Part shown: in pieces, positions 372 through 53,700 of the stretch
Layout of the letters: every line of letters starts with the position of its first letter
How positions within the stretch are numbered: the first letter of the stretch is position 1
NCBI GenBank assembly: GCA_963969395.1
Contig: OZ017799.1
Span: 12,402,501 to 12,466,500 of the forward strand
DNA length: 64,000 bases
Direction: 5' to 3'
Source: Pseudoscleropodium purum
Taxonomy: Eukaryota; Streptophyta; Bryopsida; Hypnales; Brachytheciaceae
Translations under genes and position numbers: made by a program
The notes under the pieces: generated by a model
What the model saw: the letters and a program-made list of their open reading frames with translations, nothing else
The model's database searches: none
What the model was told of the DNA's origin: nothing

Positions 372-1171
372 ATGAGACCCTATTTTTTATCGCACGTAGT
401 TCCTACTATTTTCGCCAGTGCCCCCCCCCGAGAGTGGATGGGCCCAAACAATTACATGCTAGAGTGGTCCAACCAAGGCTATCTACGACAACCTTTGGTT
501 GTGATGCGAGATGCATATGATGAATGGACGGATGACAATGATGACAACAATGTTCTTCCACCTATCATATTTGGAGAGAGGCACAAACACATAGAAGAAG
601 GAAAACGTATTGAATTCAAACAATAAATGCAAGAGGCAATACGTAGAAGCCTACAAGATCGTGGGCAACAAGATAGGCATGGCGGGTCATACCAACGTGA
701 ACATGGAACGGGAGGATCAAAACAAGGAAGAGATGGTTCATACTACAGTTACAATCCTCAAGTTGGCTCTCAAAGTGGAGGAAGAAGCTATAGAACCACG
801 CATTGTGGTGGGTCCAGTGTATTTGGTTTATACTATACCACCCCCACCCAAATTGACTCTGAAGGCGATAGAAGAAGCCATGCAACCAACACTATGGTGG
901 GTCCACTTATGGAAACACCCATTACTATTCGGGATCCACTAGAAATGATTCATATGGGCATCTCGGAGACTCTTATTATAGTGGTTCAAATGAAAGAGGA
1001 TCACAATATAGTGCGCCAATTCCTCTTCCAACTTTTGGAGGTTCTAACTATGGGAATTATGGACAAGGTGGACAAAGTGGATATCAAGAATACTATGGAG
1101 GTGGTCCCTACATTAGAATACAAGCGAGAGGCCGAAGTCAAAAAGATGAGTTCGATTCAGATTCCGAGTGA
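372..1171 (+). pseudogene. C-terminal tail of a hAT-like transposase, frameshifted
   Basis: The reading frame from the ATG at 372 gives a Trp/Asp-rich segment (EWTDDNDD, then LPPIIFGE). It reaches a TAA at 624-626 and continues in the same frame into a Gly/Ser/Tyr-rich tail. After about position 870 the Gly/Ser/Tyr pattern continues in another frame (GGSNYGNYGQGGQSGYQEYYGGG at about 1044-1112) and ends in an acidic DSDSE and a TGA at 1169-1171. One stop and one frameshift make it a pseudogene. Low-complexity tails after the dimerisation domain are common in plant hAT transposases, but no catalytic or dimerisation residues are visible here. It could be another low-complexity protein. It is on the plus strand, opposite to the transposase in the element at 9.5-19.2 kb, so it is not the same layout. 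Confidence 0.4.
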
Positions 1172-1256
1172 AAAAAACATGCATCTATGTAGTGTTTATC
1201 TTTTAGCTCAGTCTTCTAATTCTACTCTCTACAACAGGTGTAGAGTATTAGAGTGA

Positions 1257-2590
1257 TAGAAATAGCTCAAAACTTTGGATGAATAGTAGTGCATTGTTTT
1301 GAAATTTTGATAAAAGTATTGTATATTAGTGCATGTCAAGTATATATGTAGGCAGGTAGATTGCTAGATATGTCATTGTGTTATTTTATAATACTGTTGA
1401 TGTATAAGTGACAATGAGAATTAATAAAAATATTATAAGGAAGTATAAGAGCCCTTTTATTGAATTCACCAATCGAATTTCAATTTATGATTGCATGTAG
1501 CAATTTTTTAAATGACTCTTGCATATATATTACATTTCAAAACTTGTAAATGGTCAAGATAAATTTATAACTAATTCTTAACAATTGAGTGTTTTAAAAA
1601 AAGATGCTTGAATAGCCATAACAAAAATATTGTTTACACATTTCTAATTCGTACTTCAAACAAAATGAATGAAATTTTTAGGTGTCCGTACAATCTTTAA
1701 GCCATCCTTCTAACCCCTTAAGGACTTATCCATTGTGAAATGATCAAACTTCTTATATGAACTAATTTTAGCTTTTTCAATAGTATTCAAACAACAATTT
1801 CAAAATTTTACTACTTGAAACTTTGAATATTATATCACTTAAGGTAATTGCAATTTGTTTCATGAAAACTACTAATTATTATAATTTTTCCATAACAAAA
1901 AGAACGAAAAAAATGAGTAAAAATAGCAAAAACAATCAAAATATTTTAAATTGTCTTGGGAGGTAAAAGTAGTAATGGAAATTAGCATGAATAATTTCTA
2001 ATTGATTATTTTATTTTTTACACCAAAAATAGGCACATCAAACACCTTAAAGTCAAATTAGATCATGAAATCAAATTTATACTTTTATTTCATTCATGTC
2101 CAAATTTTTTAGATATTTTTTTGCTAATAGAAAACTAAGTTTTCTATTTATTTTGTATTTTTTCAATAATTTTGGAGGAAAAATAAAATTTTTGTGATTT
2201 CTCGAAGGTAAATGTGGAAATGAAATTATGCCAATTACAATATGTATTAGAATAATCTTTAATTTTTACTGTAAATGAAGAGTCCAATGAGAAATATAAT
2301 TTTATAATTTAAATTTCAAATACATTTTCAAAAAAATATATGAATGAAAAGCATACCATTTTGTGTTATTTGGATTTTAGTTTCAAAATTTTTCAATTGC
2401 AATAAATCTTTTAATTTTGGACATTCTTCAAAAATAAAAAATAAAATACAAACAAGATTTGTCAAGCTTTGTCTTCTTCATTCACATGAAATTCCGAAAA
2501 TAGTTATTTCAAAAGTTGTAATCAAGGAATCAAGGTGAAGTAACATGCATTTACTTTCTGAATGCCTAATCATAAGGGGTAAGGTATAAA
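1257..2590. other. AT-rich intergenic DNA
   Basis: Long A/T runs with scattered short frames. No domain, RNA gene or terminal inverted repeat was recognised. Confidence 0.5.
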
Positions 2591-2639
2591 AAACACCACG
2601 GTTCAAATTCACTTGGCTCAAATACCCTAAACATGTGAA

Positions 2640-2975
2640 CTATATATCGTCCAGCCCATTTTGGCCGTCCAATGGAGTGAATAGCGATCTAGTGGATGGT
2701 GGATTGTTTGCCTTATCATGGCTGTTCGATCCGACAGATGCCGAATCCGTCCGCTTCGGCCCATCCGCCTTGTTTGATTAAGCGGACAGCGTGACCGCCC
2801 CGTTGCACTCGTCAGATGAAGCGGATGGCCAATGTTGTGCCTCAATCTGTTCGCCCTATGTCAGCCATCTGATCGAACGGACGCCATACCCACCCCATCT
2901 TAACTATCAGATTGGGCAGACTAGGTGGAGCCATCAGATGAGGCGGATGGGCCATCTACACTTCACTTTTGCCTT
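2640..2975. repeat. GGACGG/CCGTCC-rich island upstream of kinase copy 1
   Basis: A GC-rich stretch in AT-rich DNA with many degenerate copies of CCGTCC, CCATCCG and GCGGAC in both orientations. It ends about 205 bp before the ATG of the kinase-like pseudogene at 3180. This is the same relative position as the sharper island at 16630-16985 before kinase copy 2. The same hexamers make up the ends of the hAT element. A role as transposase-binding or promoter DNA is inference. Confidence 0.6.
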
Positions 2976-3179
2976 GCCCCTTGTTAACTCAAGTGTAGAG
3001 TAGAGAGCTTGGTGGTTTATCCTCCATTGGCTCCTTTCCTAGGGAAGGCAAGAGTGATATATTGGGGGCCCCTTATTGCCATTCTTTTTGCAAGTTGCAT
3101 ATGAAATTTAAATTAAATTTTATCAACAATTAATAACTAAATTTTACGGATTTCTTTTACATAAAACTGGTACATCACA

Positions 3180-4712
3180 ATGACAAAGGGGAAGAAGGTT
3201 GCAAAGGTGAAGTATGTAGGAGGGCCATTGAGCTTGGAGTTAGTTTAGCAAAGTCCCTCGGAGGCATGCAAGAAATTCATGATCGAGTGCATCATTAAAT
3301 TTTATGAGGCGGAGATAACTTTATTTTAGACAATAAGTACATTAGATATCAAGAGGAGTGCGTGCCAAAATTCAAAGCAGATATGAAGCAAAGGATGTTA
3401 GATGCATTGAACGTTCCGAAGTGGTAGGAAGAAATAGACAAGACAAACTTCAATAAATGCTTGGACAACAAGGTTCATGACATGTGTAGAACTCCAAAGT
3501 CATCTTGACAAAATATGGCAAAAAAAATATTGCCTAAACGACTCCAAGTTTGAAGAAGTGGTTCTGAAAGCGGACTTGTTCAAGGGTCAATGTACTCCAT
3601 TTGCTAAAAAGCACAGTCAAATCGGGTCGATCGCTTGGAGGAAAAACAGTAATGGAGTTGCTGAAGCGGAAAAGAACAAATGCCATCTCATAACATTTCT
3701 TAATACAAAACGGGTGATTCCCATTGATGACAAGATGATAAGAGGTGGGTACACAACGATTCGGAGGGTTCGTATTGAAGGATGTCTTGGGATACTTCCT
3801 TATTGGGAGTTTGCAGCAAAGAAATCCATTTACTACTGCATTTGACTCAAACTTGCGAAATTGGAACATCAGAACGAGTCAATGGCCATTCGAATTCAAC
3901 ATCCGGGCGTGATACGATTTGTTGTGGTATACACTACGATATATGAAGGCTATACATATTAGTGGAACGGTGGAACTTTGCGTCAAATGTTAAACTTGAA
4001 TAACAATTATCTAGATAACATACAAGTTTGATTGATGTATACGCACCCTACAGAAAATGAGGTTATAAAAGCTCACCATCTTCGTCAATTTCGGAAGAAG
4101 CGTATGGAGCTTGCATGGGCCTTTGTGCACATAATGAATGTAATGCATGTTGCTGGACATTTGTACAATGATCTTTTTTTAGACAACATCATGTTGCACT
4201 TTTTGGAGGACAAGTCACATGTCTACATTGAAGTTTGCAATTGGGGCATGGCTACCTTAGCTATTAAACCAATCAAGTCTTTGTACATGTTCACATCAAC
4301 AGATGAGAGGAAAGAGGCTTTGTAGAGGAGATGGTGGGTGGATCCAAATATTGCATATTTGTATATGAAAGATGCAGATGTGGAAATCATTCCAAATTAT
4401 TTACACACATCAAAAGAATATGCGATTGGTTGAATTGCTCAAAAGATCAACCAACAATACATGTTGGAAGCCTACTTCAAACTATAGTGTGAAACACCTC
4501 ATATGACCAAGTTTGCGTTTGACGAATTTGGAAGGGCGTTTCACCATTACTTGGACTAGCTTTGTTTGAAGGGTGAAGGTCAACATGGTGGTTTGGCCCA
4601 TGTGATGCATCGATTTTGTAATGTATACCATTGGCCTATGCTAGATGAATATTTCCGCCATTCATATCAATGGAATAGTAGTAGTAGTTCAATAGGCTAT
4701 ATAGACATTTAA
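3180..4712 (+). pseudogene. Protein-kinase-like gene, copy 1 (decayed)
   Basis: Homologous along its length to the copy at 17174-18667. It starts at an ATG in the same context (MTKGKKVAKVKY) and ends with FRHSYQWNSSSS and a TAA at 4710. Recognisable kinase features are FAAKKS (lysine of the N-lobe), the catalytic-loop remnant YNDLFLDNIMLHF, and CNWGM where the relative has CD-stop-G. The Asp of the metal-binding motif is therefore replaced by Asn here. Small deletions (near 3335 and 3482) shift the frame, and there are several stops, for example at 3843, 3960 and 4030. No protein kinase activity is possible. Its 3' flank runs collinearly with that of copy 2 into a degenerate hAT end at 5.6-5.73 kb, so it is probably the right part of a second, older element. 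Confidence 0.7.
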
Positions 4713-5330
4713 AATTAGTTGAGGAATATAGAGTTGAAAAAGAAATTATGTATGTAATTAGCCAAATGTGCACACTATATTGTATATTTAAAATTTTGAA
4801 TCAACAATGTATGACAATATATATTAAATTGAATACATTTTGAATTGTTGGTTATTTTTGTACTTGTATTGATTGAAATTTTTTTGGATATTGAATATAT
4901 ATGTTTTTTTGTTTTTTTGTATGCTTTAGCCCTTGTTTTTGAACTATACACTTAAAGTAAAAAAATGTGAAGGAGGATGCGGGAATTGAATGTACAATGA
5001 TTTGTTAAGAAATTCGAATGTAGAGAAAGGACAAAATGAAACACAAATGAAATCATGTTTGAAAAAGAAAACAAAAATTAAGGTGAGATAATTAAAGAAA
5101 AAATTGTAACCTATAAATCATATTTTTTCATAGAATTTTTTTATAACAATCAAAGTAGAATGCTTCCGAAAATATGGTGTGGACAATTAGACATAGAATA
5201 AAAATCTTTTTCACTCTACCTTTTTCAACAAGCCAGAAACAAAATTAATACAATACTATAATTTATACATGTTATAGTTTATACAGCCATTCTTTAATTA
5301 TTATTAACCGGAAGTTCAAGGTTTAGGGCG
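4713..5330. other. 3' flank of kinase copy 1
   Basis: The first 100 bp match the 3' flank of kinase copy 2 (the shared block ends near GCCAAATGTGCACA). The remainder is AT-rich and featureless. Confidence 0.5.
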
Positions 5331-5334
5331 GATG

Positions 5335-5575
5335 AGGTGGTTGGTGAGGTTAAGGAATTTTTTCTCATTTTTAATTAAATGCCATAGTGGCAATACAAAA
5401 TGTTACAATGGTACTTCCAATTTTGACATTCATCCACATATTGGATAAAAAATGCCACATTAGCACATATCACATATTCATAATTTTGTTTTCATCCATT
5501 CTTTGGCAATTTCATCCAATAAGTTTTTACAATTTGAAGATTTTTGGCGATTTCATCACAAAATTTACATTTATG
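5335..5575 (-). repeat. Dispersed MITE-like repeat (minus orientation)
   Basis: In reverse complement this resembles the repeats at 35249-35535 and 40318-40599: the block around GACATTCATC and ATTGGATAAAAAATG corresponds to their TATCCAAAATGTAGATGAATG. Its ends are poorly preserved. It makes the 3' flank of kinase copy 1 longer than that of copy 2. Confidence 0.45.
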
Positions 5576-5588
5576 TTCTAACTTCTAA

Positions 5589-5729
5589 GGTTGCGGTCAA
5601 AGCAAACAGGGTAGTCAAAGTGTTTCAATAGGGTAGATGGTAGAGGTGGACAATGCAGATGGTCGATTTTGCAAATGTCAACAGACACTACAGACCTCGC
5701 GTCCGCGTCCGGACATTGTGTCAACTTTG
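5589..5729. mobile_element. Degenerate right end of the kinase-bearing hAT element
   Basis: Aligns by eye to the right end of the 9.7 kb element: GCGGTCAAAGC here versus GCCGTCAAAGC at about 19110, and the last bases GTCCGGACATTGTGTCAACTTTG versus ATCCGAACGTCGTGTCAACCTTG. Many GGACGG motifs have decayed through C-to-T and G-to-A changes. The matching left end was not found in the window, so the target duplication cannot be checked. Confidence 0.6.
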
Positions 5730-6540
5730 AATGGAGGAGTTTTGATTTCACATGTAGAAAGTTAGCAGTGAAGTTATCAAAACAAAAAATAGTTGCACGT
5801 GTAGAGAAGGAGAGTTTGGTGCATGATGTTCTTTGGTCGAACATTTTTGCATAAAATGTGGAGGGAATACTCTTCACCTACACCCATGCCACAATTCGAA
5901 CACTCGATTAGAATCATGACATATGTAAGGTGTCTTCAAAGCATTCCTAGTTATTATCCTTGTCACCAATTTCACGCAAAGAGTCACAACAAGATACACA
6001 CAATCTTTAAAGCAAATCAAAGATCATTTCCATGTGAGAAAAACACTCTCTAGCAAATGGAAACCTATTCTCCAAAGTTTTTTGAAGGGGCTCCATGATG
6101 TTGAGGTGAAGCCATCATAGTGAGTGTTGATCCTGTACGTGTTCTAATCATTATTCCTTCTATAGCAGCAGTGCAGACACTATGCTTTCTAAGGTATTCA
6201 ATAATTGCATGTAAACAAGTGAAGTGGTGATGACTAGTTCATTAGTCTTCCAAGTATGGACAGGAGAGATGACTGTAAGTAGAACTAGGTGTGTTAAGCA
6301 CTATGTATTGCCATCAGTATATTCCCTTATAAGGATGTAGTGGTAGTGTCCCATACTCAAGTCCTTAGCATTCTTTACATGCATTTGTTTATACAGAATT
6401 ATCATTCACTGGAATGTGGTAAAGTGCATGTGATTTGTACAAAGCCACATCATTTTAAAACAATGTGGGAGGTTTCCATACGTGTTGTAAAAAATTAATA
6501 AATAAATTAAAAAAATTTGAGGGAAAGAGGGAGACAGAGA
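5730..6540. other. Intergenic DNA between hAT end and conserved module
   Basis: Several short frames but no recognisable domain. Nothing supportable as a gene. Confidence 0.4.
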
Positions 6541-6850
6541 GCACTCACAACAACTAAGGCGCACTATCCACAATTCCTTGGCAATGACTTTATCAACAAT
6601 TTGAAGATCCATAGTACCATTTTGTTCTTAGATTCGAAGATTTAAGGCCAATGGAGGCAAGGGAAGGGAAGGCAAGTGGTAGATGTACACAATACTCAAT
6701 TGGGCTTTGACTGCTTGGAATCTTTATCGATCGTTGACAATGGCAGCTATCCTTGGATTCCCTTGTTCAAGAGAATCTTTTTTGTTGGAGAAAGAGCATC
6801 CCTCCTTAGTCCTACTCAGGTAGATTGATCCTCCAAATGCATAGGCAACT
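6540..6850 (+). repeat. Conserved tandem-unit module, copy at 6.6 kb
   Basis: Shares with the copies at 20.95, 31.35, 43.4, 45.8, 54.9 and 63.6 kb the string of blocks CCACAATTCC, TTGAAGATC, ACCATTTTGTTCT, then CTGCTTGGAATCTTTA and GACAATGGCAGC. It ends with AGAGCATCCCTCC and TACTCAG followed by GTAGATTG, which has the form of a splice donor. It may be a promoter plus a first exon. The coding frame is not settled, because copies disagree on which frame is open. Confidence 0.55.
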
Positions 6851-7144
6851 TTTAGCTTATATATAATGAAAAAAAACCATGTTTTTTTGTTAAGAAACGT
6901 AGTGTGAACGCTCACCATAATATGGTGAGTGATACATGTCATAGGGATTGGGTGGAATTCCTTTAGACCAATAGGAGAAGACAACTATTCATTGTCTCTT
7001 TCCTTTTTCCCTTTGTATATACTTCAAACTCTCTAATGAAGTTTAGAATTCTTTTAAGTGTATTTTGGTGTTCTTGTGTTTTACAATTTGTTTCATTTTA
7101 TATTCTCAAGATTTTTCAAGATTTTTCAATCATGTCTATGATTT

Positions 7145-8817: not shown

Positions 8818-8908
8818 TATCAAAGAGAATACAACTTCTTCTAGCAAAGATTCATTGCCAAAAGTGTCAAAATATGATAACCTTCAATTCATGTATACTA
8901 CCATTAAA

Positions 8909-9483
8909 ACTATCCTATATAGGGAAGTACTTGGAATAGGGAGTTGGAAGATCGAACATTAAATTCTTCTCCCTTCCAATATTTAAATGTTACAACTAGG
9001 GCCCAAATATATCCTACCACATTTAACAAGACTATTGGAAACAACAAGCACCAAAGTAAAAAGTCAGTAGAGTCAATCTCGAATGCAAATCCAAGTATTC
9101 CTCCTCAAACAAGATTCGCCTCAAAAAATATGATAGGTATTATACAAGTTCTATTCAAAGACTTTAGATTGGCAATGAAGTAAGCTCCCATTACTAGTAG
9201 AACCCCACATGCAATTGATACTCCAAGCTTGAATCTACTTCCATTTTTAGATTTGAAACCTTGTATTTTTTTTACATTCTTCAATGAACTTCACTTCTTC
9301 TATAGGAAGCAAGTAAAGAAGTAGGGGTCTACGACTGAAGCTTGCAAAATTATGAAGGACACCTTTCATAAGAATCACCATATTCAAAACACAAGCAATG
9401 GCTTCTATTGGACTCACTTGAAGCCCTTGCACACAACGAAGTGTCGAACTACAACCCCACAAATGTAGCCTATGGCTTGTACA
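8909..9483 (-). pseudogene. Membrane-protein gene A, 3' part (split by the hAT element)
   Basis: This is the C-terminal third of the gene, homologous to 52133-52697 of intact copy D. It encodes the end of the hydrophobic region, the cytosolic loop with LLYLLPIEEVKFIEECK, and the segment VSPIEAIACVLNMVILMKGVLHNFAS. The frame is broken in several places. The coding sequence stops exactly at the 8-bp target duplication CTTGTACA (9476-9483) and resumes at 19226 after the 9.74 kb insertion. Function is as for copy D. This copy cannot make a full protein. Confidence 0.8.
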
Positions 9484-9626
9484 CAGGGTTGACGAATCTC
9501 TACGTCCGCCCTAAAATAGCATCCGTTTTCCGGACGTCCAGAAGCACGGACGCTAGCGGACGCAGCGTCCCTCCCGCCATCGGAAGGCGGACGCGCAGGG
9601 CCGGGCGGACGGACGGGGCGGCTTAG
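9484..9626 (+). repeat. Left terminal region of the hAT element
   Basis: Starts CAGGGTTGAC and continues with dense GGACG motifs (ACGTCCGCCC, CGGACGTCC, GCGGACGCAGCGTCCC, then GGGCGGACGGACGGGGCGG). It matches the reverse complement of the right end of the small elements ending at 19544 and 35148, which shows those elements share this terminus. Confidence 0.8.
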
Positions 9627-9972
9627 AAAACCCGTTTTGGGTTTTTTGTTTTGATTGTTTTCACCAATGAGAGATTGAGAGTGAAGTCATTTTGATTTTG
9701 ATTTTTCTTATATTGCAATTGCGATTCAATAGAGTTGTATATCACTATTTATGTAAAGGCTAAAATATGAAATATATTTTTAATTTTTTTTGTTGAATTT
9801 CATTTTGATTTAGAAACAAAATCACTTTAAAATCCAGTGAGATGTATATCATCAATAAACAAACAATTTTATAATAAAATGATTGAAGAAACCATTGTCA
9901 TTTGTCAACATGAGCTCCATATATCATGAGCAACTAAACAATCAAACATCTAAATTCACATCTCCACAATTC
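9627..9972. other. 3' flank of the transposase gene
   Basis: AT-rich stretch between the element's left terminal region and the end of the transposase tail. No feature beyond short A/T runs. Confidence 0.4.
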
Positions 9973-12900
9973 CTATGGATGCAAATCCACATCTCCTCTA
10001 ACCTCAGCCCCACTACTCTCTTCTGCAGCTCTCCGTTCAAAATCTTCATTATTGGAGTCATCTTCATTGTCGGAGTCATCTTCATTGTTGGAATCAAGTA
10101 TCGTTGTCTTCTTCAAGTCTTCTCTCGAAGTAGGTTTACTCCCGTCTTTCGAATTTAATTTTTCTTTTTTTACTTTGACAAAACGATTAAAGGCTTTTTG
10201 AATAGGAACCTTTCTTTTCTTTCTATTTGACAAAGTAGCAACATTTTCATCAAAAGGGGTCCTATTCTTCACTGAGAGATAGCAAAAGGTTGCATTTCTC
10301 TTTTTGCTTTCACCTTACTCGATTCTTGAACCATCAATCTTGATGTAGGGTCAACATGTCCATGAACGGTTATCTCCACTTTGGCTTTCTTTTGAAGTAA
10401 TAGAGTGCCGTTTGTTGATTTGATCGGTTCTTGCGCCATTTCTTTTGCTAAAATGCGAGCACGCAAAGATGCCAATGGCATCCGATCACTATCCATATCA
10501 CTTAGGCTTGTAGGTAATGACGCTACTTTCCGTAGATTACCGCCTGTAGAAATTTCTTTGGAAATGTTCATTAGGCGTTTTCCATATCCAAAGCTTTGAG
10601 AATCATTCAATTGTGTGCTAACAGACTTCAACGGTATTGGTGGAAGAGCACTAGATCTCGGTACTTCAAAAATTGACTTCATTGGCTCCTTTCCTTTATC
10701 ACTCTTTACAATTGCCGAAATTGTGACTGCCATCCCAAGTGAATCATTATTTTTTTGTACCGCAATATTTGATTCCCCCTCATCACCACTATTGTTGCCC
10801 ACATTTTTTGAAACGTCCACCTCCATGACTGCATCTTCTCTTTTGTCGTTTCTTTGCACTACATTTAATGCCACAGATGGAGATTGAGAAATTAAAACTT
10901 CTTCATTTCTCCCATCATCACCAATAACATTCTCATTGATTTTCACCTCTTTGGCAATAGCGTTTGCCTTTTCCGATAGAATGTTTTCGCTATTCAAGAA
11001 TCCCATTCTATTGCAATATGCAGTTAAAGAAGGTAGATTCTTCTCTCCCCCTACATTGTCCTCGTCTTCACAAAATGTATATGCATCGTTTGCATTGTCG
11101 GGAACGACATCCTTGCGGTTTAGATGATAATCATGCGTATCATTCACCAAATTGGGTAAGTCTTGCATAACGTCTTCATCTCCCCATGCTGTTGCACGAT
11201 TGAAGTCATCTCCGCCATCTACAGCTAAAAGGGCCCTTTCCAAATCATCGTCATCATCGTCTTCTAACGTCGGCCTATCTGAATCCTCTAATTCCATCGG
11301 ATCTATATTATCATTATACCATTTTTTTTCATATTTTTCCTTCGATGCGTTTAATACTTTGGAATTGGTATACACATACACCAAATCCGCTGCTCTCTCC
11401 GGCTTCAATTTATTTCAAAATTTGTTGTGAACAAAAGAATAGTTGCTCCAATTCCATTCACATGAAGTCATGAAGATGATGACACTGGTTGAGCCAATAT
11501 CCTCTTCGCTAATGGAGCTATAAACTTGCCACATACACCTTCAAAATCCCACCAAGTATGTGCGGGCAACATTTGATCTCCCGGATTCAACATATTGTGG
11601 AATGGAGGTTCCTTGTGTCGAAAAGCCACAAATTCCTTCACCACTGCTGCATATTCATCCGGTTTACATATTCTCTCAAAACTTTCTTACATCCTGACAT
11701 TGCATCTGCATCATCCGCTAGCTCTTTGTCATGAAGAAGGTATGGATTCAAAAGAGCTGCGGCTGATTGGAGATCGTTGTCCACCATTCTTCTTCGGGCA
11801 TAAAAAGACTGTACCAATGGAATTGCAAGTTCTTCTAGCAAACAAAATGGTGGACTTTGTAATCCGTTCACGTGCTTCTCTAACTTCCTCATGATATGCA
11901 ACACCTTCCCCATGCATGGTGATTTTGAATCCAAATCGCGGAGTGCACATATGATTGGTTCAACCATCTCCACATAATTGATGGACAGATTCCAAAAATG
12001 GTCATCAAGAACAATTTTCTTCACCGCTAAGGCCAAGTCTTTTGGTTGGACTTTAGCTCCACGTTTCTTCTTGAGAGTATGTACATACTCAACCCATTGC
12101 GGATCTACTACCGTTTGTTCCAATGCTCCTCTCAATTTTGTCAAACGCTCCATCATGATAAATTTAGAGGCGAACCTTGTATCCCCAGGCATCAAGAGAC
12201 CAAGATTTGGCGAATACTTTCGCAATAGAGCTAGCGGCATATGTCTCTTCCTGATAAATTTAGTTACAAGAACTCCTTTATCCAATTTGGAAGCAATCCA
12301 TTTCTGTGCAGCCCAATCCTTCAACAACAAATTCAATGCATGTACCACGCACCCTTGGTAAAAAATATGAGGATATTTTGCAGATATTACATCCTATGCG
12401 GACAGATTCACGAGAGCATTATCCGTAGTTATTAACATGACGTTCTTGGACCCCACTTGTTCAATGAACTTTTCCAACACAACTGCCAAGTACTCCGCAT
12501 TTTTTTCACAACCACTTGTATCCATAGATTCAAGATATTCTTCACCTGCGAATGATACAAGCATGGCATTGATGAGAGGTCGATTAGTCACCGAGCTCCA
12601 TCCATCAATGGACAATGTTGCTCCAAATTTTCGAATGCTATCTTCGGTCCGTGTATTCAACTGTGTCTGAATTTTGGTCTTCGCCTCATTCAACAATTTG
12701 TACCGAAGGTCGTGGTATGAGGGAGAAATGTATGGCCTACCAAACGCAGCGGTTTTCTTCACTGCTTCTTTAAAAGCTGGATTTCGAGCCACGGAAAATG
12801 GTATGTTCGCCGAATAAAAAAAATTTGTCCATACTGAATGTAATTTGCGTCTATGACCTTCTTCAAACCCATTCACTAAGTTGCCTTGCCTCTGAGGCCT

Positions 12901-13295
12901 AGAACTTGATGCCCTCGAGGTTTCACGTTCACCAGAAGCTTCCGTACTCAAAGTCATTTCAATTGTAAAACATACCATTGATACCAATTCTTTGGACGCT
13001 AGACAAGAGTCTTCCTAGTCAGAATGCGATACAGCTTTTCCGGCCGAAAACTCTTGAACATTTGAAGGGCCAGGGTTGCCATCCACATTGTCAATTACAA
13101 CGCGTTTTGGAAAAACTCTTTCGCAATGCCGAAATAAATCTCGAACTGCCATTGATAATCGTGGACAAAGGCTCACCTCTTTATCACGTACACCTCCAGG
13201 CCCAGAATAGCCTAAGTGGCTAAACATACGGTTGAGCTTCCTTGACATGCTCGCTTTGCAAAGCCTACATTTTACTTTACCACCCTCTTGCACAC
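9973..13295 (-). pseudogene. hAT transposase (BED finger, DUF659, dimerisation region) with long charged tail
   Basis: Reading leftward from 13295: a C2H-type BED-like finger (VKCRLCKASMSRK...HLGYSG, then SLCPRLSMAV). Next a DUF659-like domain (FGATLSIDGWSSVTNRPLIN, then NVMLITTDNA) and the CVVHALNLLLKD segment. Then LLRKYSP and MPGDTRFAS, and a hAT dimerisation region (TWWDFEG, APLAKRILAQPVSSSS, CEWNWSNYSFVHNK, ADLVYVYTNSKV). About 450 codons of acidic and then lysine-rich tail follow (DDDDDD; NRKKRKVP). Breaks: TAG at 13015-13017, TAG at 12394-12396, frameshifts near 11.69 kb and 11.46 kb, a TGA for Arg after SFVHNK, and a frameshift at about 10270. The frame before 13295 is closed and preceded by TTGATTTAG, so an upstream exon is likely. 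Transposases of this class bind the element ends and cut and rejoin DNA in the nucleus. Confidence 0.85.
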
Positions 13296-13639
13296 TAAAT
13301 CAAGGAGAAAAATCCCCCATCGATTTGGCCACCATACTGACAAGTGTATGTTTTACCTCAATTTCAAAAGAAAACAATAAAATGTTTTAAATTTGAAACC
13401 CACAACGTGACAATGTATACAATATCAATGAAATTAGTCACACAAAGCTTTGAAAATCAAAGCCCTTCCGTCCACCAAACTATGCATTACCAAGCAAGAG
13501 ACTCAATAAATTGAAGCTCATAGCCCTTGGAAATCTTAGCGTTCGGTTTTTCAAGAGTGAATACCAAAGCTTCTCTTCTAACATTTATAGTCCCCTCCAA
13601 AAAATTAAAGGTTCATTTTTAGGGTTTCCATTCAAAAAC
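13296..13639. other. Putative 5' region or intron of the transposase gene
   Basis: The transposase frame closes at 13300 next to an acceptor-like TTGATTTAG (read on minus), which suggests an intron or leader here. I could not identify a first exon. Confidence 0.35.
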
Positions 13640-13875
13640 AAACAACGGCCCAGATGGGACTGAAGCGGACGGGCAGACGGACCGGTCGGACAGGGCGAGC
13701 GGACGGGGCAGACAGATGGGGCGGGCGGACAGGCCAAACGGGTCGGACGGACGGGCGGTCGGACAGGACTGTCCGCACTGTCCGCCTTCCGACGCCGTCC
13801 GCGCTTTGGACACGCCGACCACCCCACTTAAACACTGACCGCCGACGGCGTCCGCCCAACTGTCTATTGGTGCAT
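13640..13875. repeat. GGACGG-rich island upstream of the transposase
   Basis: About 235 bp dense in GCGGACGGGC, GGTCGGACAGG, GGGCGGACAGGCC and CGTCCGCC motifs in both orientations, within AT-rich DNA. It lies about 350 bp upstream of the first recognised transposase codons on the minus strand. It is made of the same motifs as the element termini but is internal. Candidate promoter or transposase-binding array; this is inference. Confidence 0.65.
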
Positions 13876-13992
13876 CCTATGAGGCTGATATTACTCAAAA
13901 AGAGCGGTAACATTTCCAAAAAAAAACAGCCTAATAATCACTGCTAAATGAGGATCAATGTAATTGATTTATCATTTTTTATTTTTTTTAAA

Positions 13993-14030
13993 TGTAAACC
14001 CTAAACCCTATACCCTAATTACCCTAAACC
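13993..14030. repeat. Short telomere-like CCCTAAA run
   Basis: Four to five degenerate plant telomere repeats (AAACCCTAAACCCTATACCC and following). Too short for an old telomere. Such tracts also occur as plant promoter telo-boxes. Confidence 0.5.
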
Positions 14031-15760
14031 TTTTCTTTTCTCCCCTAAATTGTTTTACGAATGAGGGGAATGTGATTAAGTTGAATATGTTTGGATTATT
14101 TACTGATATTATCCCTCTAAATAGGTTTTGAAAAGATCTGATGATGGTGGGGATTTTTTTAAAGTTCATTAGGAAATCAAATGTTTTGCAGAAATAGTCA
14201 ATTCTTTTTTCATCGTAAGCACATGAAATTTTTTAAAAAGGCCCCAATACATAATTAGAATAACAATTTAATGGATTTCAACCTCATGATATTTAATGAA
14301 AGGTTGTGATTTCTCATTAAAAGTGCATCACGATCTTCAAATGAACATTGAGTCTTTCATATTTTTTGATGAAATTTCGATTAGATTTGAAAACAAAGAA
14401 AAAGAATCAATGTTTTAACTTTCAAATCATGTATGGCTATATTTTTCCTTAAAAACATAGAAAAATTCATTACTTGAGTTGGTGGAGTAGAATACATTAT
14501 ACACTTATACATGTGCTATATTTATTTTGAAGGGTAATTCCAATATTCTTATTTCAGATGTTTTTAAATATTAATTTTAAAAAAGAGGGTTCATTGCTTA
14601 AAGATCTAAAAAATTGACAAACATAATTTCTATTATAAATAGGAATTGAATTCGGAATTCGAATTTTGAAATGATTCAAATGAACAAGATATTGATTATA
14701 AAATATTTCTTCGTTTGAATTTTCAAAATGAATTCACGAAACAATTGCAAACTTTTGAACTTAGGTATATGATATTGTTTTTGGTTTGTACTTTGTAGAG
14801 TATAATACTTCAATTTTAATCCTAAATAAATGAAAAACTCCACATAAATGAAATGTTTCTATATATTGCACAAAGATTTCTACCAATTACTATGATAATT
14901 AAATACATTGTTACATTTCATAAAATATTCTACATAGAAAAAAAAAATCATTTCAGTTTTTAATCATGATAAACGATGTCTTCTACTCTTTCTGTTATAT
15001 GTTCGTTTTGTATAACGTGTACATTGTACAATCTTTGAGAGCAGGGGAGTTCATTTTTGACTCTCATTGAAATAGAAAATATATTTGTGTTTGGATTTTG
15101 AAATCATTATGTATTCTACGGTCTTGCAAGAATGCATCTTGTTTCTTCCTTTGAATCCTTTTAATATTTTCTTTATTTTCCTTTGTTTTTTGTCTCGTAG
15201 GGCTCTTATTATCTTGTTCTCTTCATTTGATCAGCCTATTTGACTTGGCTCTTAGTTTTTTGTTTTTTTTAATGTAATGGTTTATGCATATGTTATAAAA
15301 TATATATATTATTTATCTAAAATTAATATATTGATGAACAAACACATAAAGGCATTGAATGCTTTCACATTTAAAGTTATAAATCTATTATAAATCACTC
15401 TTGCAAATTTGAATGATTGAATCGAAAATTTGAAAATGTAATTACAAGAGCTTTCAATTCAATCAATTGCATAAATCATAAATGTTGAAATGCAACTCGT
15501 ATGAGTTTAGCATCTATGAAGATTAATTCATGCCATCCACATGCAATTTTTCAATTTAATAAAATGCAATTGAGTACTTCAATTTCTTTCCCTTCAGTTT
15601 TCCAAATAACATTTACTTCATATCTTTCTCAATTTGTTTATCTATTTTTTGGGAACAAATGGAGAAACCATCTTTGTCTATATTTGAACATGCACTTTTA
15701 TTTGATTGATGAAGAATAGATCTATGAAATATATAATCATTGATTTGTTCATGTTGTATG

Positions 15761-15785
15761 TATATATATATATATATATATATAT
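15761..15785. repeat. (TA)n microsatellite
   Basis: Twelve consecutive TA dinucleotides. Confidence 0.9.
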
Positions 15786-15987
15786 CATTAAAGGAGTATG
15801 GAAGACAAGATTGATAGATTGTGTTCGAATGTTGTTGATTTTGAAATGATTTAGTACTATATCATTTATAAGAATATTATAATAGTGTTATGTTATAATA
15901 TTCCTAAAACAATTGCAACAAATATTAAAATACATGCTAAGTTAGGTTTGTTAGCCTATCAATTGTTCATTAATAGACATAATTGAG

Positions 15988-16196
15988 TAGCCCCCTTAAA
16001 TGAAACACTCAATATCTAATATCTTACAATCCAAATGGTGGATTTGTCTAAAATTTGTTCCACATCTTTTCCAACTAATTTACTACAAGATCCTACGGTT
16101 ACATATGCCCAAAAGTATTTTTCTTCCAAGACTTGGTATTTGCACTATTACTGGCAGTTTTGAAGTGTTTTTAGTGAAAAGAACTTTAGGGGTTAA
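15988..16196. mobile_element. Small MITE nested in the hAT element
   Basis: Ends TAGCCCCCTTAAA and TTTAGGGGTTAA are imperfect inverted repeats. The interior (TACTACAAGATCCTACGG, GGTTACATATG) matches the interior of the larger element at 7885-8817. Its presence shows that material has accumulated in the hAT copy after or before its last move. Confidence 0.55.
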
Positions 16197-16629
16197 ACAT
16201 CTATACCATGAGATTTTGAAAAAAGAACAATTTGCTTCATTGGGGATAAATATAAGTCCATGCTCTTTTTCGATAGCCAAAACACACTTGCAAGGACTTG
16301 GACATTTAGTAGTTTACTAAGTGATTAGACGTCAACTAATTCAATTTCATAGTAGAATTTTTATTCAACTACCTTCTTACAATTGCTTTATACACAATGC
16401 AATGTGAATATCTGGGTACATATATTAAACGTCGCAATCCTTTCGTGAATTTTTACACATTTTAGCTCATATCTTTGTACAAAAATATCATTGATCAAGA
16501 ATTCATAAATTTGGTTATAAAGGAAGGCTACCTTTTTTAATTTCAAATTTTACATTGAATGAATGAAAAGTTAGTTGAAATATACAGTGCCATGAAGACC
16601 TCTGTTTATCGTGCAAAATATGGGTTTAG
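16197..16629. other. AT-rich spacer before the kinase promoter island
   Basis: No gene or inverted repeat recognised. Confidence 0.4.
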
Positions 16630-16985
16630 GGTCGCTTTAGGGTCAAACCGCCCCGTCCGCCCCATCCGTCCAGACCCCGTCCGCCCCAATACCTGTCCGC
16701 CCTGTCCGCCCCGATACTCGTCTACCCTGTTACGGTCGATGCGTTCGCCCCCCCCCCCCCGGACCGTCCAATCCGGCGTCCGCCCCGATACCCGTCTGCC
16801 CTGTTACGGCCGATGCGTTCGCCCCCCCTCGGACCATCTGATTGGGCAAACGCCAGATTTGTCCGCCCATGGCCATCCGATCGAGCGGATGGGGCTCTAG
16901 GGTTTGGGGGAGGCGGACAGCCAATCCATCCACCACCCCCAGCCCGTCCGATCGGGCGGACGGTTTAGGGCCGTCCGCATTGTTA
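16630..16985. repeat. GGACGG/CCGTCC island with a 74-bp tandem duplication, upstream of kinase copy 2
   Basis: Runs of CCGTCCGCCCC and CCCGTCCGCC, then a unit beginning CCGATACTCGTCTACCCTGT (16711) that is repeated at 16785, a period of 74 bp. Each unit ends in a poly-C run and TCGGACC or CCGGACCG. The island ends about 190 bp before the kinase ATG at 17174. The equivalent island before kinase copy 1 is at 2640-2975. Confidence 0.75.
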
Positions 16986-17173
16986 CTTTTGCTTTGCCCC
17001 TTGTGAATGCAAGGTGGAGCGGAGAGCTTGGTGGTTCATCCTCCATTGGCTCCTTTCCGAGGCAAGGCAAGAGTGGTTTATTGGAGCCCCCTTGTTGCCA
17101 ATTTTTTGGACACTTGCGCGTGAATTCAATTTCAAATTAAAAAATTTGATCTATATCAATTTCATTTGTCACG

Positions 17174-18667
17174 ATGCCGAACGGGAAGAAGAAGGTTGCG
17201 AAGTTAAAACATGGAGAGGGACCATCAAACTTGGAGGTAGCTCGCCAAAGTCCTTCGAAGGAATGCAAAAAATTCATGATTGAGTGTATCGTTCAATTTT
17301 ATGAATCGGAAACAACATTGTCTGTAGACAATAAGTACATCAGATATCAAGAGGAGTGCGTGTCTAAATTCAAGGTAGACATGACACAGATGTTGTTGGA
17401 TGCATTGAATGTGGCGAAGTGGCATGACGAAATGCATAAAGCGCACTTCACCAAATGTTTGGAGAACAAGGTTCATGACGCTTTGTGAAATTCCAAAGTC
17501 ATTTTGGTTAAATATGGCAAGGAATGTCGACCCAATGATGCCCAATTTGAAGAAGTGATTCTGAAAGCGGACTTATTTAGGGGACAATGTGCTCCATTCG
17601 CCAAAACGCACAATCGAGTTGGTTCAATTGGTTGGTGGAAAAGCAATGTTGGAGTTGCTGAAGCAGAAAGGACCAAACGGCACCTCATAGCACTTCCAAA
17701 TACAGCGTGCGTGATTGCTATTGATGATAGAACGATGAGAGGTAGATATGCAACGATTCGAAAGGTTTGTATTGAAGGATGTCCAGGAATACTTCCTCAT
17801 TGGGAGTTTGCGGCAAAGAAATACATTCACCACCAAACTCGACCTGATCTTGCAAAGTTAAAACATCAAAACGAATTAATGGTTGTTCGAATTCCACACG
17901 CGGGTGTGATACGGTTTGCTGCGGTGTACGGAACGACGTATGAAGGTTATGCGTATTGGTAGAATGGTGGAACTCTTCGACAAATGTTGAATATAGATAA
18001 GGACTTTCCAGACAACATTCAAATACGTTTAATGTATACAAATCCAACCGAAGAGGAGGTTGTAAAAGCTCATCATTTAGGATGATATCGAAAGAAGCGC
18101 ACGGAGTTGACATGGGCGTTTATGCATATAATGTATGCAGTGCATCTTGTTGGACATTTGCACAATGATCTTTCTCCGGACAACATCTTGTTGCATTTTT
18201 CAGAGGATGAGTCACGTGTATACATTGGAGTTTGCGATTGAGGCATGACCACCTTAGCTTCTCAGCCAATGAAGTCTTTGTACACATTCACATCAGCAGA
18301 TGAGATGAAACAAACTTTGCAGAGGAGATGGTGGGTGGATCCACGTATTGCATATTTGCATAAAGCAGGTGCAGATGTGGAAGTCATTCTGATGTATTCA
18401 CGTAAGTCGGAAGAGTATGCCATTCGAAAAATTGCTCGGCGGATGAATGGAAACAACATATTAGAGGCGTATTTCAACGTACTACTTAAAACACCTAGTG
18501 CGACACAATTTGCCTTTCATGACTTTGCAGAAGTGTTTTATGCTTACTTGAAGCGCATTTCTTCGAAGATTGACGATGAAAATACTAGTTTGGCCCATGT
18601 AATTACGCGGTTTTCTAATACATGTCGTTGGTCGATGCCAGATGAACATTTTCGCCATTTATATTAG
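17174..18667 (+). pseudogene. Protein-kinase-like gene carried by the hAT element, copy 2
   Basis: One collinear frame of 497 codons from a true ATG to TAG at 18665, with no frameshift but four internal stops: TGA 17486 (codon 105), TAG 17960 (263), TGA 18083 (304), TGA 18239 (356). Residues 1-190 form an N-terminal region I do not recognise, including KKFMIECIVQFYES and HWHD-like charged helices. The kinase-like part has EFAAKKYIHH (Lys 215/216, ATP site). The hinge region is YAYW-stop-NGGTLRQM. The catalytic loop is HNDLSPDNILLHF (His330, Asp332, Asn337). The DFG-equivalent is CD-stop-G, whose stop replaces the Trp present in copy 1, giving an ancestral DWG. A later RRWWVDPRIAY may be the APE-like region. 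It probably once phosphorylated protein; the substrate is unknown. It lies inside the transposon, convergent with the right end. Confidence 0.75.
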
Positions 18668-19079
18668 ATTAGTAGTGCAGAAGTAGTAGTTGAATAGGTT
18701 ATATAGGCATTAAAAATTAGTTTAGAAATATAGAGTTGGAATGAAAAAAATTATATGTGCAATTAGCCAAATGTGCACAATGTATGGTATTCTATATTAA
18801 ATTCAATATATTTTGCCCATATTGATTATGTTTGTATTTGTGTTGATCTTGATTTTTTAAACAGTATATATATATATATATTTGAAGTCACAAACTTTTT
18901 TAGTTTGCCTTCTGAAAATGAATTGGAATTTTTTCATAGTTTCAAGATTATCATGGACTCATGGTTAAACTTTATAATCTTTCAACTTATAAGAGACATT
19001 GTTTTAATGACAAATCGCGAACCATTGCACTTCATTTAACATTTAATTGTTTAAAGATTAAGGGAGTGACCGCGGGGCA
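18668..19079. other. 3' flank of kinase copy 2
   Basis: Matches the 3' flank of copy 1 for the first 110 bp, then AT-rich with a short TA run near 18865-18882. Leads directly into the right terminal region of the element. Confidence 0.5.
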
Positions 19080-19225
19080 GTTTGGGTAGGGCGGTTGGGA
19101 GAAATAGAGCCGTCAAAGCGGACGGGGCGGACGGGATGACAGGCGGACGCTGCGTCCGCGGGGACCGCGAATGTCAGCGGACGCTGCGGACACAACGTCC
19201 GCATCCGAACGTCGTGTCAACCTTG
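19080..19225 (-). repeat. Right terminal region of the hAT element
   Basis: Dense GCGGACGGGGCGGACGGG, GCGGACGCTGCGTCCGCGG and CAACGTCCGC motifs ending GTGTCAACCTTG. In reverse complement it matches the left 100 bp of the elements at 19320 and 34878 (shared GGACGTTGTGTCCG and CGTCCGCTGACATTCGCG). Confidence 0.8.
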
Positions 19226-20143
19226 CTTGTATACTTGCAATAGCCATACCCACGCTTGAATTCCTTCAAAGAAATTTGAGTTGATCATATGATAGAAGCA
19301 CATTTGATCTCATCAATGCTAGGGTTGACAGGACAATCGGACGTCCGGGACGTCCGGACGGGGACGTTGTGTCCGTAGTGTCCGCTGACATTCGCGGTCC
19401 CAACGGATGCAACGCCCGCCGGGACCGCCCCGCCCGTCCGCCTTCCAACGGCGGGAGGGACGCTGCGTCCGTTGGCGTCTGTAAGGACAGACGTCCAGAT
19501 TACAGACGCTATTTTGGGGCGGACGTACTGATTTGTCAACCCTGATCAATGCTAGTTTCCCATGTAGTGCAAGTTGAACATTGAATTGTTTAGAATTTGC
19601 CACTTTAGGTCCAACAATTAGTGCCTCTAAAAGATCTTCCATTGTTACTTTGGCATCAAAAACATTGAGATTGTGAATCTCGTTGTAAACATCTGGAGAT
19701 AAATTCACAATGACATCACTACCCAAAATGACCTTGATATGGAATTTGCTCCACGGATACAATGGGGCAATTACATCATCTCCAAGTGCTTCATGAAGGT
19801 TGGCTAGCATTGCCATACCACTCATGGTTTTCATAAGCATATCCCATAGAACAACCAAAGGGCTCAAGGCGCTCATGAAAAATGCCCAAAAAACATGTCA
19901 TATTTTGCTTTGATCCATAGCCTTTGTAGCTCCCCAAACATCCATGGTCAAGACAACCGAAGTGACAATGAAACCCCACATAGATGTCCACCAATACCGT
20001 GGACATTGCCTTCCAATACACTCAAAAGGGCATGTCTTACAAGACCCATCTATGTCACTTTGTGCATACACCAAACTTCAAAAGGTCGACCCTAAAACCA
20101 AGGAAAGAAATGAGTGAACTAGATCCACACACCTCTACATCAT
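19226..20143 (-). pseudogene. Membrane-protein gene A, 5' part
   Basis: Continues gene A upstream of the 9.74 kb insertion. The ATG equivalent to that of copy D is at 20143. Recognisable parts are YAQSDIDGSCKTCPFECIGR, WWTSMWGFIVTSVVLTMDVW, MSGMAMLANLHEALGDDVIA and APLYPWSKFHIK, then LALHGKLAL. The frame is broken near the signal region and by a TGA before HVFWAFFMSAL. A further 225-bp element (19320-19544) sits between KLAL and RSNVLLSYDQLKFL. At least three lesions besides the two insertions show that this copy has long been inactive. Confidence 0.8.
19320..19544. mobile_element. 225-bp non-autonomous hAT element (deletion derivative)
   Basis: Ends TAGGGTTGACA and TGTCAACCCTG, flanked by a perfect 8-bp duplication ATCAATGC (19312-19319 and 19545-19552). 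The left about 110 bp corresponds to the right end and the right about 110 bp to the left end of the 9.74 kb element, with the interior missing. It lies in the coding part of gene A, 94 bp from the large insertion. Confidence 0.9.
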
Positions 20144-27780: not shown

Positions 27781-29293
27781 AATATTCCAATTGTTCATGT
27801 TCTATGCTCCCCCTATTGATTTGGGTCCAAGGAATCCAATGAATCAAGGCCGGTTTCCATCTATCAAGTACATAAAACCATGGGAAGTTGAGAGGTAGGG
27901 AGCAACTAGAGAGTATGAAGAAGAAGAAAGAGCTACAATTCTAAGCTTAGTTAGCGAGCTAGGCATAATTGAAGAATGCAATGATCTCAAGACTGGCTAA
28001 ATTTTGCTCAATTTCTACTTAATTTTTATTTGCCTTCAACATAAATTCAAAAAAAATCTTCCAAAAATGAACATTTGGCTAATTACTTATTGTGGGATCA
28101 TTTGGAGAAAGAGTCTATTCATTACATATCCTACATCCCTATAACAAATAGAGAGCATGACAAATGCTATACACAAGAAACTCATGCAAAAGTCATACTA
28201 GGAAGCTCACAAGGTCACACAACTCAAGTCATTGATGAAGAAGAAAGCAATTTATGACAAGTCTAGTCTATTTTGAAGCTCATGACCATTCAACAGTGCT
28301 ACTATGTGAGCATGAAAATATGAGCATGTGAGCTTTGAGCATATATATAAATAGATATACTACAAACATTGAAGGTGCTTATTATATAGACACTTATAAT
28401 ATAGGTACTTATTTTATAATTACACTATAATCATGGAAGGTTTTTATAATATAAACACCTATTACATAGGTTTTTAGTCTTCTAGGCTTCCTAAAGGCTG
28501 CTTCATACTATAATCAAAGGTCGGCAGGTTATGGTTTTCCACCAATCACATTTTAAGAAATCAAGAATTTGGCCTTTCAAATTTTCATACTAGAAGACAC
28601 AACCCAAAGGCCAACACCCTCCAAATTGCCTACATGGTAAGAAAAATGCCCACAAAGTCACAAACTCTTAAAAGAAGTTTGGGTTAGCCAAACTTGAAGA
28701 CCCAAATTATGGTCAAAAGGTCGTCGAATTTGCCTCTGTCACCCAAGTAGAATTTATATTATTAGAAGCTCTGCCAAGGAATCACACAAATCATGGCATT
28801 CATCTAAAGTACTCTGTGATGTATGTTGAAGTTTATTCTATATTGAAACATACAAGAATTGAATATGAAAAAATACTGACAAGGCAAACTAGAAAATTAT
28901 GTTTAATTTATTTTGATTGTGGCAATAGCAAAGGTCATACTAGTTGAACTTGAATATATAAGCAACCTCCAAATAAAATCACATTTGCTTTGCAACATCC
29001 ACTTCAAGATACTTATACTCAAAGAGATCATAATGCCAAGTGAAGATTTCCATGTAACCCACCAATTAATGTAGCCCAATAATAGTTAGCAACCATCTAA
29101 TATCAAATTTTTACAACCTATGAAAACAAATCACCATATGCACAAAGACTTGAAGTGTGTATGTGTACATATTAACAAGACTTTGATATTATTAATATCA
29201 AGGATAATTTAGAACTTCTTCTAGCAAAGACTCATTGTTTAAGGTGTCAAAATAGGAAAACTTCCAACTCACATATGCTACTATTAAAACTAT
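27781..29293. repeat. 3' flank of unit B, paralogous to 48.7-49.4 and 60.36-60.8 kb
   Basis: Blocks such as GAGAGCATGACAAA, CACAAGAAACTCA and AAAGCAATTTATGACAAGTC are shared with 48.75-49.3 kb. The part from AGAAAATTATGTTTAATTTA to the gene is shared with the flank of gene E. No gene seen. Confidence 0.6.
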
Positions 29294-34877: not shown

Positions 34878-35148
34878 CAGGGTTGACAGGATGGTTAGAC
34901 ATTCGGGACGTCCGGACGCGGACATTGTGTCTGCAGCGTCCGCTGACATTCGCGATCTCAGCAGATGCAGCATCCGCCAGGACCGCTCCGTCCGCTTGTC
35001 TCCCCGTCCGCCCCACCCCGCCCGTCCGCCTTCCGATGGCGGGAGGGACGTTGTGTCCGCTAGCGTCCGTGAGGACGGATATCTGGACGTCCAAACGTCC
35101 GGGTTACGGACGCTATTTTGGGGCGAACGTACTGATTTGTCAACTCTG
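34878..35148. mobile_element. 271-bp non-autonomous hAT element (deletion derivative)
   Basis: Ends CAGGGTTGACA and TGTCAACTCTG with a perfect 8-bp duplication CCCCAAGC (34870-34877 and 35149-35156). The sequence is closely related to 19320-19544, and its halves correspond to the two ends of the 9.74 kb element. Confidence 0.9.
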
Positions 35149-40867: not shown

Positions 40868-41049
40868 ATCTTGGTATTAAATCTTTGAAAACAAATCACC
40901 ATATACACAAAAGACTTAAAAAAATACATGTATATATAACAAGACTTTGATATCATAACATTGGAGAGAATACAACTTCTTTGACCAAAGACTCATTGCC
41001 AAAGGTGTCAAAATATGAAAACCTTCAACTCACATATGCTACCACTAAA

Positions 41050-53374: not shown

Positions 53375-53700
53375 TCTTTGAAGATAATTTGAGAACAACC
53401 TAAAAGAATGAAATACACACTTAGAACCTCAAGCAATGATCTCAATGAACCAAGTTGAATACATTGTTGCACAATCATCCAACAAGAAGGAACACACTTG
53501 CAAAGCAAAAAAAACATGGTCCCTCCTTTTAAACATTGAATGCACCATATTATAACTATAATCATTTCCATAGTCACCTCATGTGTCCATAATGAGGCTC
53601 TTCAATAATATCATATGAATGGACTAACTACTCAAAATATGAATACCTTGACTCCATAGAAGGCGCTAGTTAGTGAAGACACGGTGATGCATGTCATGTA

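Follow-up and report, generated by a model that had tools for sequence, protein, structure and literature searches.

Classical hAT elements are one-gene transposons that encode only a transposase, and the Ac/Ds system of maize pairs autonomous members with transposase-free ones that share their ends and have no conserved genes of their own. Here, we analyzed a stretch of 64,000 nucleotides from the moss Pseudoscleropodium purum (assembly GCA_963969395.1, contig OZ017799.1, positions 12,402,501 to 12,466,500 of the forward strand; "the window" below), in which a hAT transposon carries a protein kinase gene divergent from its transposase. We conclude that the element is real and that its kinase is resident and, judged by the pattern of changes among its copies, under selection. 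A first-pass annotation of the window had proposed a two-gene transposon type; the resident kinase stands, but that description is too narrow, as a second type of element (type B, the first being type A) has the same ends and carries RING-finger and glycine-rich genes with no transposase. Type B resembles Ds in lacking a transposase while sharing its partner's ends, and differs in carrying conserved genes. Plant hAT elements with a DUF659 transposase are like the moss element in their 8-bp target duplications, short CAGGG inverted repeats, DUF659, dimerisation region, and Hermes-like fold, whereas two or more genes, a transposase tail of 300 to 500 residues predicted to lack order, a resident kinase, and a partner type that has RING and glycine-rich genes but no transposase set the moss element apart. 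VANDAL21 differs in belonging to the Mutator-like superfamily, and its accessory protein VANC is not a kinase; the anti-silencing role considered below for the moss kinase is only a proposal. Alpha-kinases and typical protein kinases, in turn, differ in class.

Among the hits listed by our literature search, whose scope excluded Repbase and subscription papers, there was no hAT or moss transposon with a kinase gene and no partition of the A/B kind. Accessory enzymes, even a kinase, are nevertheless already known in DNA transposons from the alpha-kinase of IS3EU elements of rust fungi, which lies in the opposite orientation to the transposase, with a TET/JBP gene between the two and 6-bp target duplications (PMC12730594). 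The moss element is like IS3EU in being a DNA transposon with a kinase gene opposite to its transposase, and differs in superfamily, host (IS3EU being fungal), duplication length (8 rather than 6 bp), and kinase (PF00069/PF07714 rather than alpha-kinase). An identification of the moss element as IS3EU with an alpha-kinase is ruled out by its 8-bp duplications and by typical-kinase families and fold matches. The same source describes TET+ hAT7 elements of rust fungi, which are hAT related and share with the moss element an accessory enzyme gene, while differing in their 7-bp duplications and in encoding a dioxygenase instead of a kinase (PMC12730594). In Arabidopsis VANDAL elements, the targets of VANC often form tandem repeats (PMC5735166), and the likeness to the moss system lies in an accessory gene within a plant transposon and in clustered noncoding repeat motifs.

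A kinase gene resident in a hAT element

The termini of the window element lie exactly at 9484 (CAGGGTTGAC...) and 19225 (...GTCAACCTTG), one mismatch from a perfect inverted repeat, and its joined flanks match three uninterrupted paralogues within the window, at 52124-52786 (82%), 60775-61447 (79%), and 29283-29941 (78%). The limits given in the first-pass annotation are thereby borne out, as is its uninterrupted paralogue near 52690, to which two more are added; the 8-bp target duplication it reported is present in imperfect form (7/8; CTTGTACA and CTTGTATA). It had also described a minus-strand transposase and a plus-strand kinase in divergent arrangement, and both were found, with broken frames that it did not mention: four stops interrupt the kinase frame, and the transposase frame has as many, together with five gapped codons. 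This copy is therefore dead; relatives with open frames exist. Across 9.6 kb the element is 93.7% identical to a complete element elsewhere (L011), and the longer end CAGGGTTGACAA occurs 656 and 651 times in the 313-Mb genome, compared with 11 and 4 occurrences of the reversed pattern, an abundance that exceeds chance.

The element belongs to the hAT superfamily by its 8-bp duplication, its terminal repeat, a transposase with the dimerisation region and D/D/E residues, and a Hermes-like fold. The terminal inverted repeats of hAT elements have the consensus 5'-YARNG; among eight complete elements, the left end reads CAGGG except in L037 (TAGGG) and L021 (CAGAG), and the right end reads CAGGG except in the window copy, whose CAAGG departs from YARNG only by its A. 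On the minus strand, the window transposase matches DUF659 (E 1e-21) and, below the cut-off, zf-BED (E 0.0033; 17.8 bits against 20.6), and its relative in L037 matches the hAT dimerisation region PF05699 (E 8e-9) together with DUF659 (E 2e-26). In an alignment of 23 transposase relatives, D298 and E615 are invariant and D237 is present in at least 90%; we take these three to be the catalytic D, D, and E residues of a hAT transposase. The structure model was made on the relative P0056 rather than on the window protein (mean predicted local distance difference test score, 57.6; tail without order), and all 10 Foldseek matches at an E value of 0.001 or less were Hermes chains.

Further copies were sought across the 52 contigs of the genome, and in each search the best candidates were scored. 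A six-frame search with the kinase gave 1,536 candidates, of which 86 copies, counting that of the window, were scored; the corresponding numbers were 81 of 1,052 for the transposase and 49 of 965 for RING. These candidate numbers are not copy counts, and the genome lists hold best-scoring copies only. No internal stop was present in 35 of the 86 kinase copies, and no stop over the query in 26/81 transposase and 3/49 RING copies. By coordinates, the scored copies include 17 divergent transposase-kinase pairs with gaps of 3.8 to 6.0 kb, where fewer than one pair would be expected. A random sample of 40 was then taken from the 64 transposase places that lacked a listed partner, and 1.2 kb was fetched at the expected position of the kinase; kinase DNA was found there in 35, and in 34 it was divergent and the copy's own. 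The L090 pair, chosen because both of its genes were listed, is free of stops (transposase, 1,155 codons; kinase, 505 codons) on a stretch without a left end. Within these samples, the transposase and kinase are paired divergently at many loci, as the first-pass annotation expected of a resident kinase; likewise, four complete type A elements each have a distinct and perfect 8/8 duplication (Table 1), and no ends of the kinase's own were seen around it in the examined loci.

The kinase holds a regular position relative to the element's end. In 26 of 30 fetched loci, a right end with at most one mismatch lies 454 to 623 bp past the last kinase codon; the end lies at 881 bp in L022, has two mismatches in L010 and L029, and was not seen in L017. 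Upstream DNA, fetched for eight of these loci, yielded seven complete elements (the eighth, L010, has neither end within one mismatch), of which L034 sits inside another pair of such ends that has a duplication of its own. The transposase was read in all six type A loci that had fetched upstream DNA or lay in the window (the window copy, L010, L011, L020, L034, and L037). Classed by upstream DNA, the 30 loci comprise 22 of type A, 7 of type B, and 1 of neither (L017, with a RING copy 1 kb away on the same strand), and a random sample of 20 among the remaining 56 kinase copies comprises 13 of type A and 7 of type B, for a total of 49 out of 50 in one type or the other.

Chance capture in a single copy is rejected by the 17 coordinate pairs and the 34 of 40 sampled copies. 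That the kinase could be a separate nested mobile element, or a host gene family with hAT insertions, might be read from the match to an annotated gene of the moss Ceratodon purpureus (P0022, one of only two kinase relatives that bear an organism name, 46% identity), but we regard this as extremely improbable and reject nesting, given the type A or B DNA upstream of 49/50 loci, the nearby element end in 26/30, and the fact that no own ends were seen. The kinase gene is a regular, resident part of the hAT element, divergent from the transposase.

A predicted kinase maintained between insertions

Judged by its catalytic residues and predicted fold, the protein is a eukaryotic protein kinase that also has a helical domain at its N terminus. 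The Pfam Pkinase match of the window kinase (E 5e-4; 20.0 bits) is below the cut-off of 31.7, as are those of its relatives L011 (21.1 bits) and P0001 (24.0 bits), whereas a distant family member, P0047, exceeds it with 45.4 bits, which argues that the element kinases form a divergent branch. A protein database search with the kinase recovered 48 related proteins with identities down to 27 to 46%, and in all 29 that were aligned the Gly loop, Lys, helix Glu, HxD, Asn, and DFG Asp are invariant. The family has HND and DWG as motif variants and S in place of the Lys of HRDLK; the third DFG position is G in 27 of the aligned relatives and A in 2. The structure model, made on P0001 and not on the window protein, has a protein kinase fold, typical kinases fill its list of fold matches, and the only Pfam kinase families listed for these proteins are PF00069/PF07714. 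Comparison with sequences of solved structures gave weak matches only (best E 0.0015) and NCBIfam matches fell far below the cut-off, so neither assigned a specific class. The N terminus is lysine rich (family consensus MPKxKKxxK), which hints at a nuclear location. One record 69% like the kinase (P0002) is filed under a "Bacilli" metagenome bin and probably represents contaminating plant DNA. When viral_contigs and genome_contigs were scanned with the alignment of the kinase, 28 and 8 sequences, respectively, matched the pattern, but none was a relative, and viral or bacterial relatives are not supported. Our findings suggest that members of this kinase family that are annotated as genes in a moss genome or occur in environmental sequences may be mobile.

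Selection was assessed on 30 kinase copies, with nonsynonymous (N) and synonymous (S) changes corrected for the mutation spectrum and private changes compared with shared ones. Single-copy changes (N, 159; S, 71; stops, 14) give a ratio of 0.88, which is near neutral, while changes in at least three copies (N, 49; S, 46; stops, 4) give 0.49 (Fisher P = 0.0026 versus single-copy changes). With the threshold for sharing set at two, four, or six copies, the ratio is 0.65, 0.43, or 0.35 (P = 0.036, 0.003, or 0.007), and the ratio is 0.46 (P = 0.002) after removal of near-identical twins. Shared changes are constrained and private ones near neutral, a pattern indicating that purifying selection keeps the kinase between insertions; the pairwise ratio of nonsynonymous to synonymous substitution rates (dN/dS) is 0.36 across 27 full-length copies in register. 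A captured passenger, useless to the element and spread by hitchhiking with the right half, would account for a right half (kinase plus end) that is nearly unchanged between types A and B and for stops in 51 of the 86 listed kinase copies, but appears improbable in view of the constraint on shared variants, the conservation of the family elsewhere down to 27 to 46% identity with invariant catalytic residues, and the kinase gene's own 5' motif cluster (see below).

In the tree of kinase copies, the tips are long and the inner branches short, and type B copies mostly group on a branch of their own; two inverted-order pairs of A and B neighbours have almost identical kinases, which indicates that exchange between the types occurs. 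Close same-gene pairs among the listed copies are all inverted (seven kinase and four transposase pairs within 30 kb and two RING pairs within 40 kb; e.g., C42:21646168 with C42:21662593 and C45:21388626 with C45:21400241), and no direct close pairs are present among them, compared with about 0.7 kinase and 0.6 transposase pairs expected. The inverted pairs could be products of hAT alternative transposition, a subject of papers on maize Ac, of gene conversion, or fold-back artefacts of assembly.

Transposase-free elements with the same ends

Type B elements are about 11.8 kb long and combine the ends of type A with a RING-finger gene, a glycine-rich gene, and the same kinase; transposase DNA was not found in the three that were read (L016, L021, and L023), and none of the type A elements that were read showed the RING gene. 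The first 45 bp at the left are nearly identical between the types, which also have the same short inverted repeat, while over 150 to 190 bp the ends are 63 to 78% alike between types and 67 to 82% within types. The types also have a middle segment of 2.5 kb in common (93%). The RING gene is on the minus strand, and among listed copies its open frame reaches 1,137 codons; its RING-type match (E 2e-5) scores 24.5 bits against a cut-off of 27, which is exceeded in the relative P0050, and the protein of about 1,100 residues is conserved at 32 to 71% in five further records. The glycine-rich gene is on the plus strand and has stops in the L016 copy. By eye, the RING and glycine-rich proteins share an N-terminal stretch (YVKM-HI-KLW ... 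MVWAE/MVYAE; L016 joined locus 3840-7064, 10558-11850). Among listed copies, there are 13 kinase-RING pairs within 16 kb, 12 of them divergent.

For its movement, type B would depend on the transposase of type A, supplied in trans. It is unlikely, in our estimation, that the types are not partners and that type B is moved by another hAT transposase or descends from a four-gene ancestor that carried everything. Elsewhere, relatives of the transposase and RING proteins occur on contigs of equal length (P0057/P0051, 17,649 bp; P0071/P0053, 7,321 bp), a hint only, which suggests that the two genes are neighbours in other species, so that one element may once have held both; no kinase contig among the relatives matched a transposase or RING contig in length. 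Against this alternative are the nearly identical left 45 bp and common inverted repeat (despite the lower likeness of the longer ends), the occurrence of type B insertions with perfect duplications in a genome having stop-free type A transposases, and the rarity of close neighbours in the lists, where a transposase and a RING copy lie within 16 kb of each other only once, both on one strand.

The short motif CGGAC/GTCCG is present 42 times within the window element (mean of shuffles, 7.8; maximum, 20) and 31 times in the 53,939 bases of the window outside 9484-19544. The occurrences form four clusters, one at each end and one 5' of each gene, and L011 is similar; L016 and L021, both of type B, have a cluster at each end as well as 5' of three genes (RING, glycine-rich, and kinase). 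We infer that these are common putative binding sites tying all genes to one control, and the putative binder is perhaps the transposase.

Proposed role of the kinase

A selected kinase that is common to a transposase-free, RING-bearing partner implies phosphorylation in the element's life cycle, and the kinase probably helps the element to move or to evade its host. As a whole, the likely best explanation is a resident hAT kinase, predicted to be catalytically active and probably nuclear, which would act in trans to promote or time transposition. We tentatively put forward the transposition complex as its direct target, especially the transposase tail predicted to lack order, which is present in this lineage (296 to 509 residues after the catalytic-Glu motif in 18 of 19 closer relatives, the motif not being found in the remaining one) and absent from six distant relatives (75 to 134 residues). 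Host silencing or repair factors, perhaps targeted jointly with the type B RING protein, are a nearly as likely alternative substrate.

Several observations weigh against a selected, resident kinase that acts on the transposase. Six of the 40 sampled transposase copies are without an own kinase where one would be expected; in five, kinase DNA is absent from that stretch (L058, L065, L067, L072, and L085, of which three show other element parts there and two show none), and the stretch of the sixth, L051, overlaps that of its inverted twin L079, to which the kinase there belongs. The selection signal is weaker in type A alone (0.53 and P = 0.08 at three or more copies; 0.58 and P = 0.03 at two or more), and variants shared by descent are nonindependent. 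The motifs HND...S and DWG stand in place of the canonical HRD...K and DFG, so that kinase activity is predicted only. The transposase has a pairwise dN/dS of 0.62 (7 copies), with 0.53 in the core and 0.81 in the tail, and so fast a tail fits a selected substrate only loosely. Finally, retention of the kinase in type B, which has no transposase, speaks as much for action in trans or on the host as for action on the transposase.

The kinase may possibly act on the host instead of the transposase, being itself an anti-silencing or checkpoint factor, with the type B RING protein as a partner (phosphorylation followed by ubiquitination), a role for which VANC is the best functional parallel. Retention of the kinase in type B is consistent with this reading, as are the RING-type match in a large conserved protein and a preponderance of G-to-A and C-to-T changes (173 of the 244 single-copy kinase changes), consistent with cytosine methylation. 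The noncoding parts of both types also contain clustered motif repeats, comparable to the tandem repeats that VANC targets often form (PMC5735166). The type A elements read, on the other hand, showed no RING gene. An extended form of this idea, which we consider doubtful, is a divided and interdependent system in which type A would give the transposase and type B the RING ligase-like and glycine-rich proteins, with both carrying the kinase and one cis motif; neither would be fully competent alone, and the kinase and RING protein would act together to phosphorylate a host silencing or repair factor and remove it. These elements provide a concrete genetic system for distinguishing signalling by a transposon to its transposase from the disarming of host control.

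Other features of the window

Table 1. Features of the window and complete elements elsewhere in the genome
Feature	Position or size	Strand	Details
Older type B relic	433..5729	+	glycine-rich gene tail; 70-76% to L016
Left target duplication	9476..9483		CTTGTACA
Type A hAT element	9484..19225		9,742 bp; ends and duplication
Left terminal and subterminal region	9484..9625		CGGAC/GTCCG cluster
hAT transposase pseudogene	9976..13335	-	BED-like finger, DUF659; 4 stops, 5 gapped codons
CGGAC/GTCCG-rich stretch 5' of transposase gene	13640..13870		bounds by eye
Middle segment common to window element and type B L016	13758..16244		93.5%
CGGAC/GTCCG-rich stretch 5' of kinase gene	16630..16985		bounds by eye
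Protein kinase pseudogene	17174..18667	+	497 codons; in-frame stops at 17486, 17960, 18083, 18239
Right subterminal and terminal region	19042..19225		
Right target duplication	19226..19233		CTTGTATA, 7/8 versus left
225-bp gene-free element	19320..19544		ends of same kind; duplication ATCAATGC
271-bp gene-free element	34878..35148		ends of same kind; duplication CCCCAAGC
L011, type A	9,739 bp		duplication GTTCTAGG, 8/8
L020, type A	9,496 bp		duplication CTAAGTAA, 8/8
L034, type A	9,545 bp		duplication GTCCCGCC, 8/8
L037, type A	9,851 bp		duplication TTTGAGAG, 8/8
L016, type B	11,651 bp		duplication GTTTTATA, 8/8
L021, type B	11,833 bp		duplication GAAAATAG, 8/8
L023, type B	11,879 bp		duplication TAATAAAC/T, 7/8

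The older type B relic in the window includes a kinase relic at about 3179-4690 and a degenerate right end at about 5720-5729 with two mismatches; neither this second kinase relic nor type B had been mentioned in the first-pass annotation. The repeated family hit by the type A element has five units in the window (8900-19800, 29283-30186, 41042-42237, 52124-53398, and 60775-61696), and its copy at 52133-53398 (minus strand) has a frame of 421 residues with hydrophobic stretches, for which a Pfam search gave no match. Another paralogue of this family contains a 277-bp element at 41647-41923 with the duplication GCTTGAGT, about 20 to 25 bp from the site homologous to the target of the 9.7-kb element, so that almost one and the same site was hit twice, independently.

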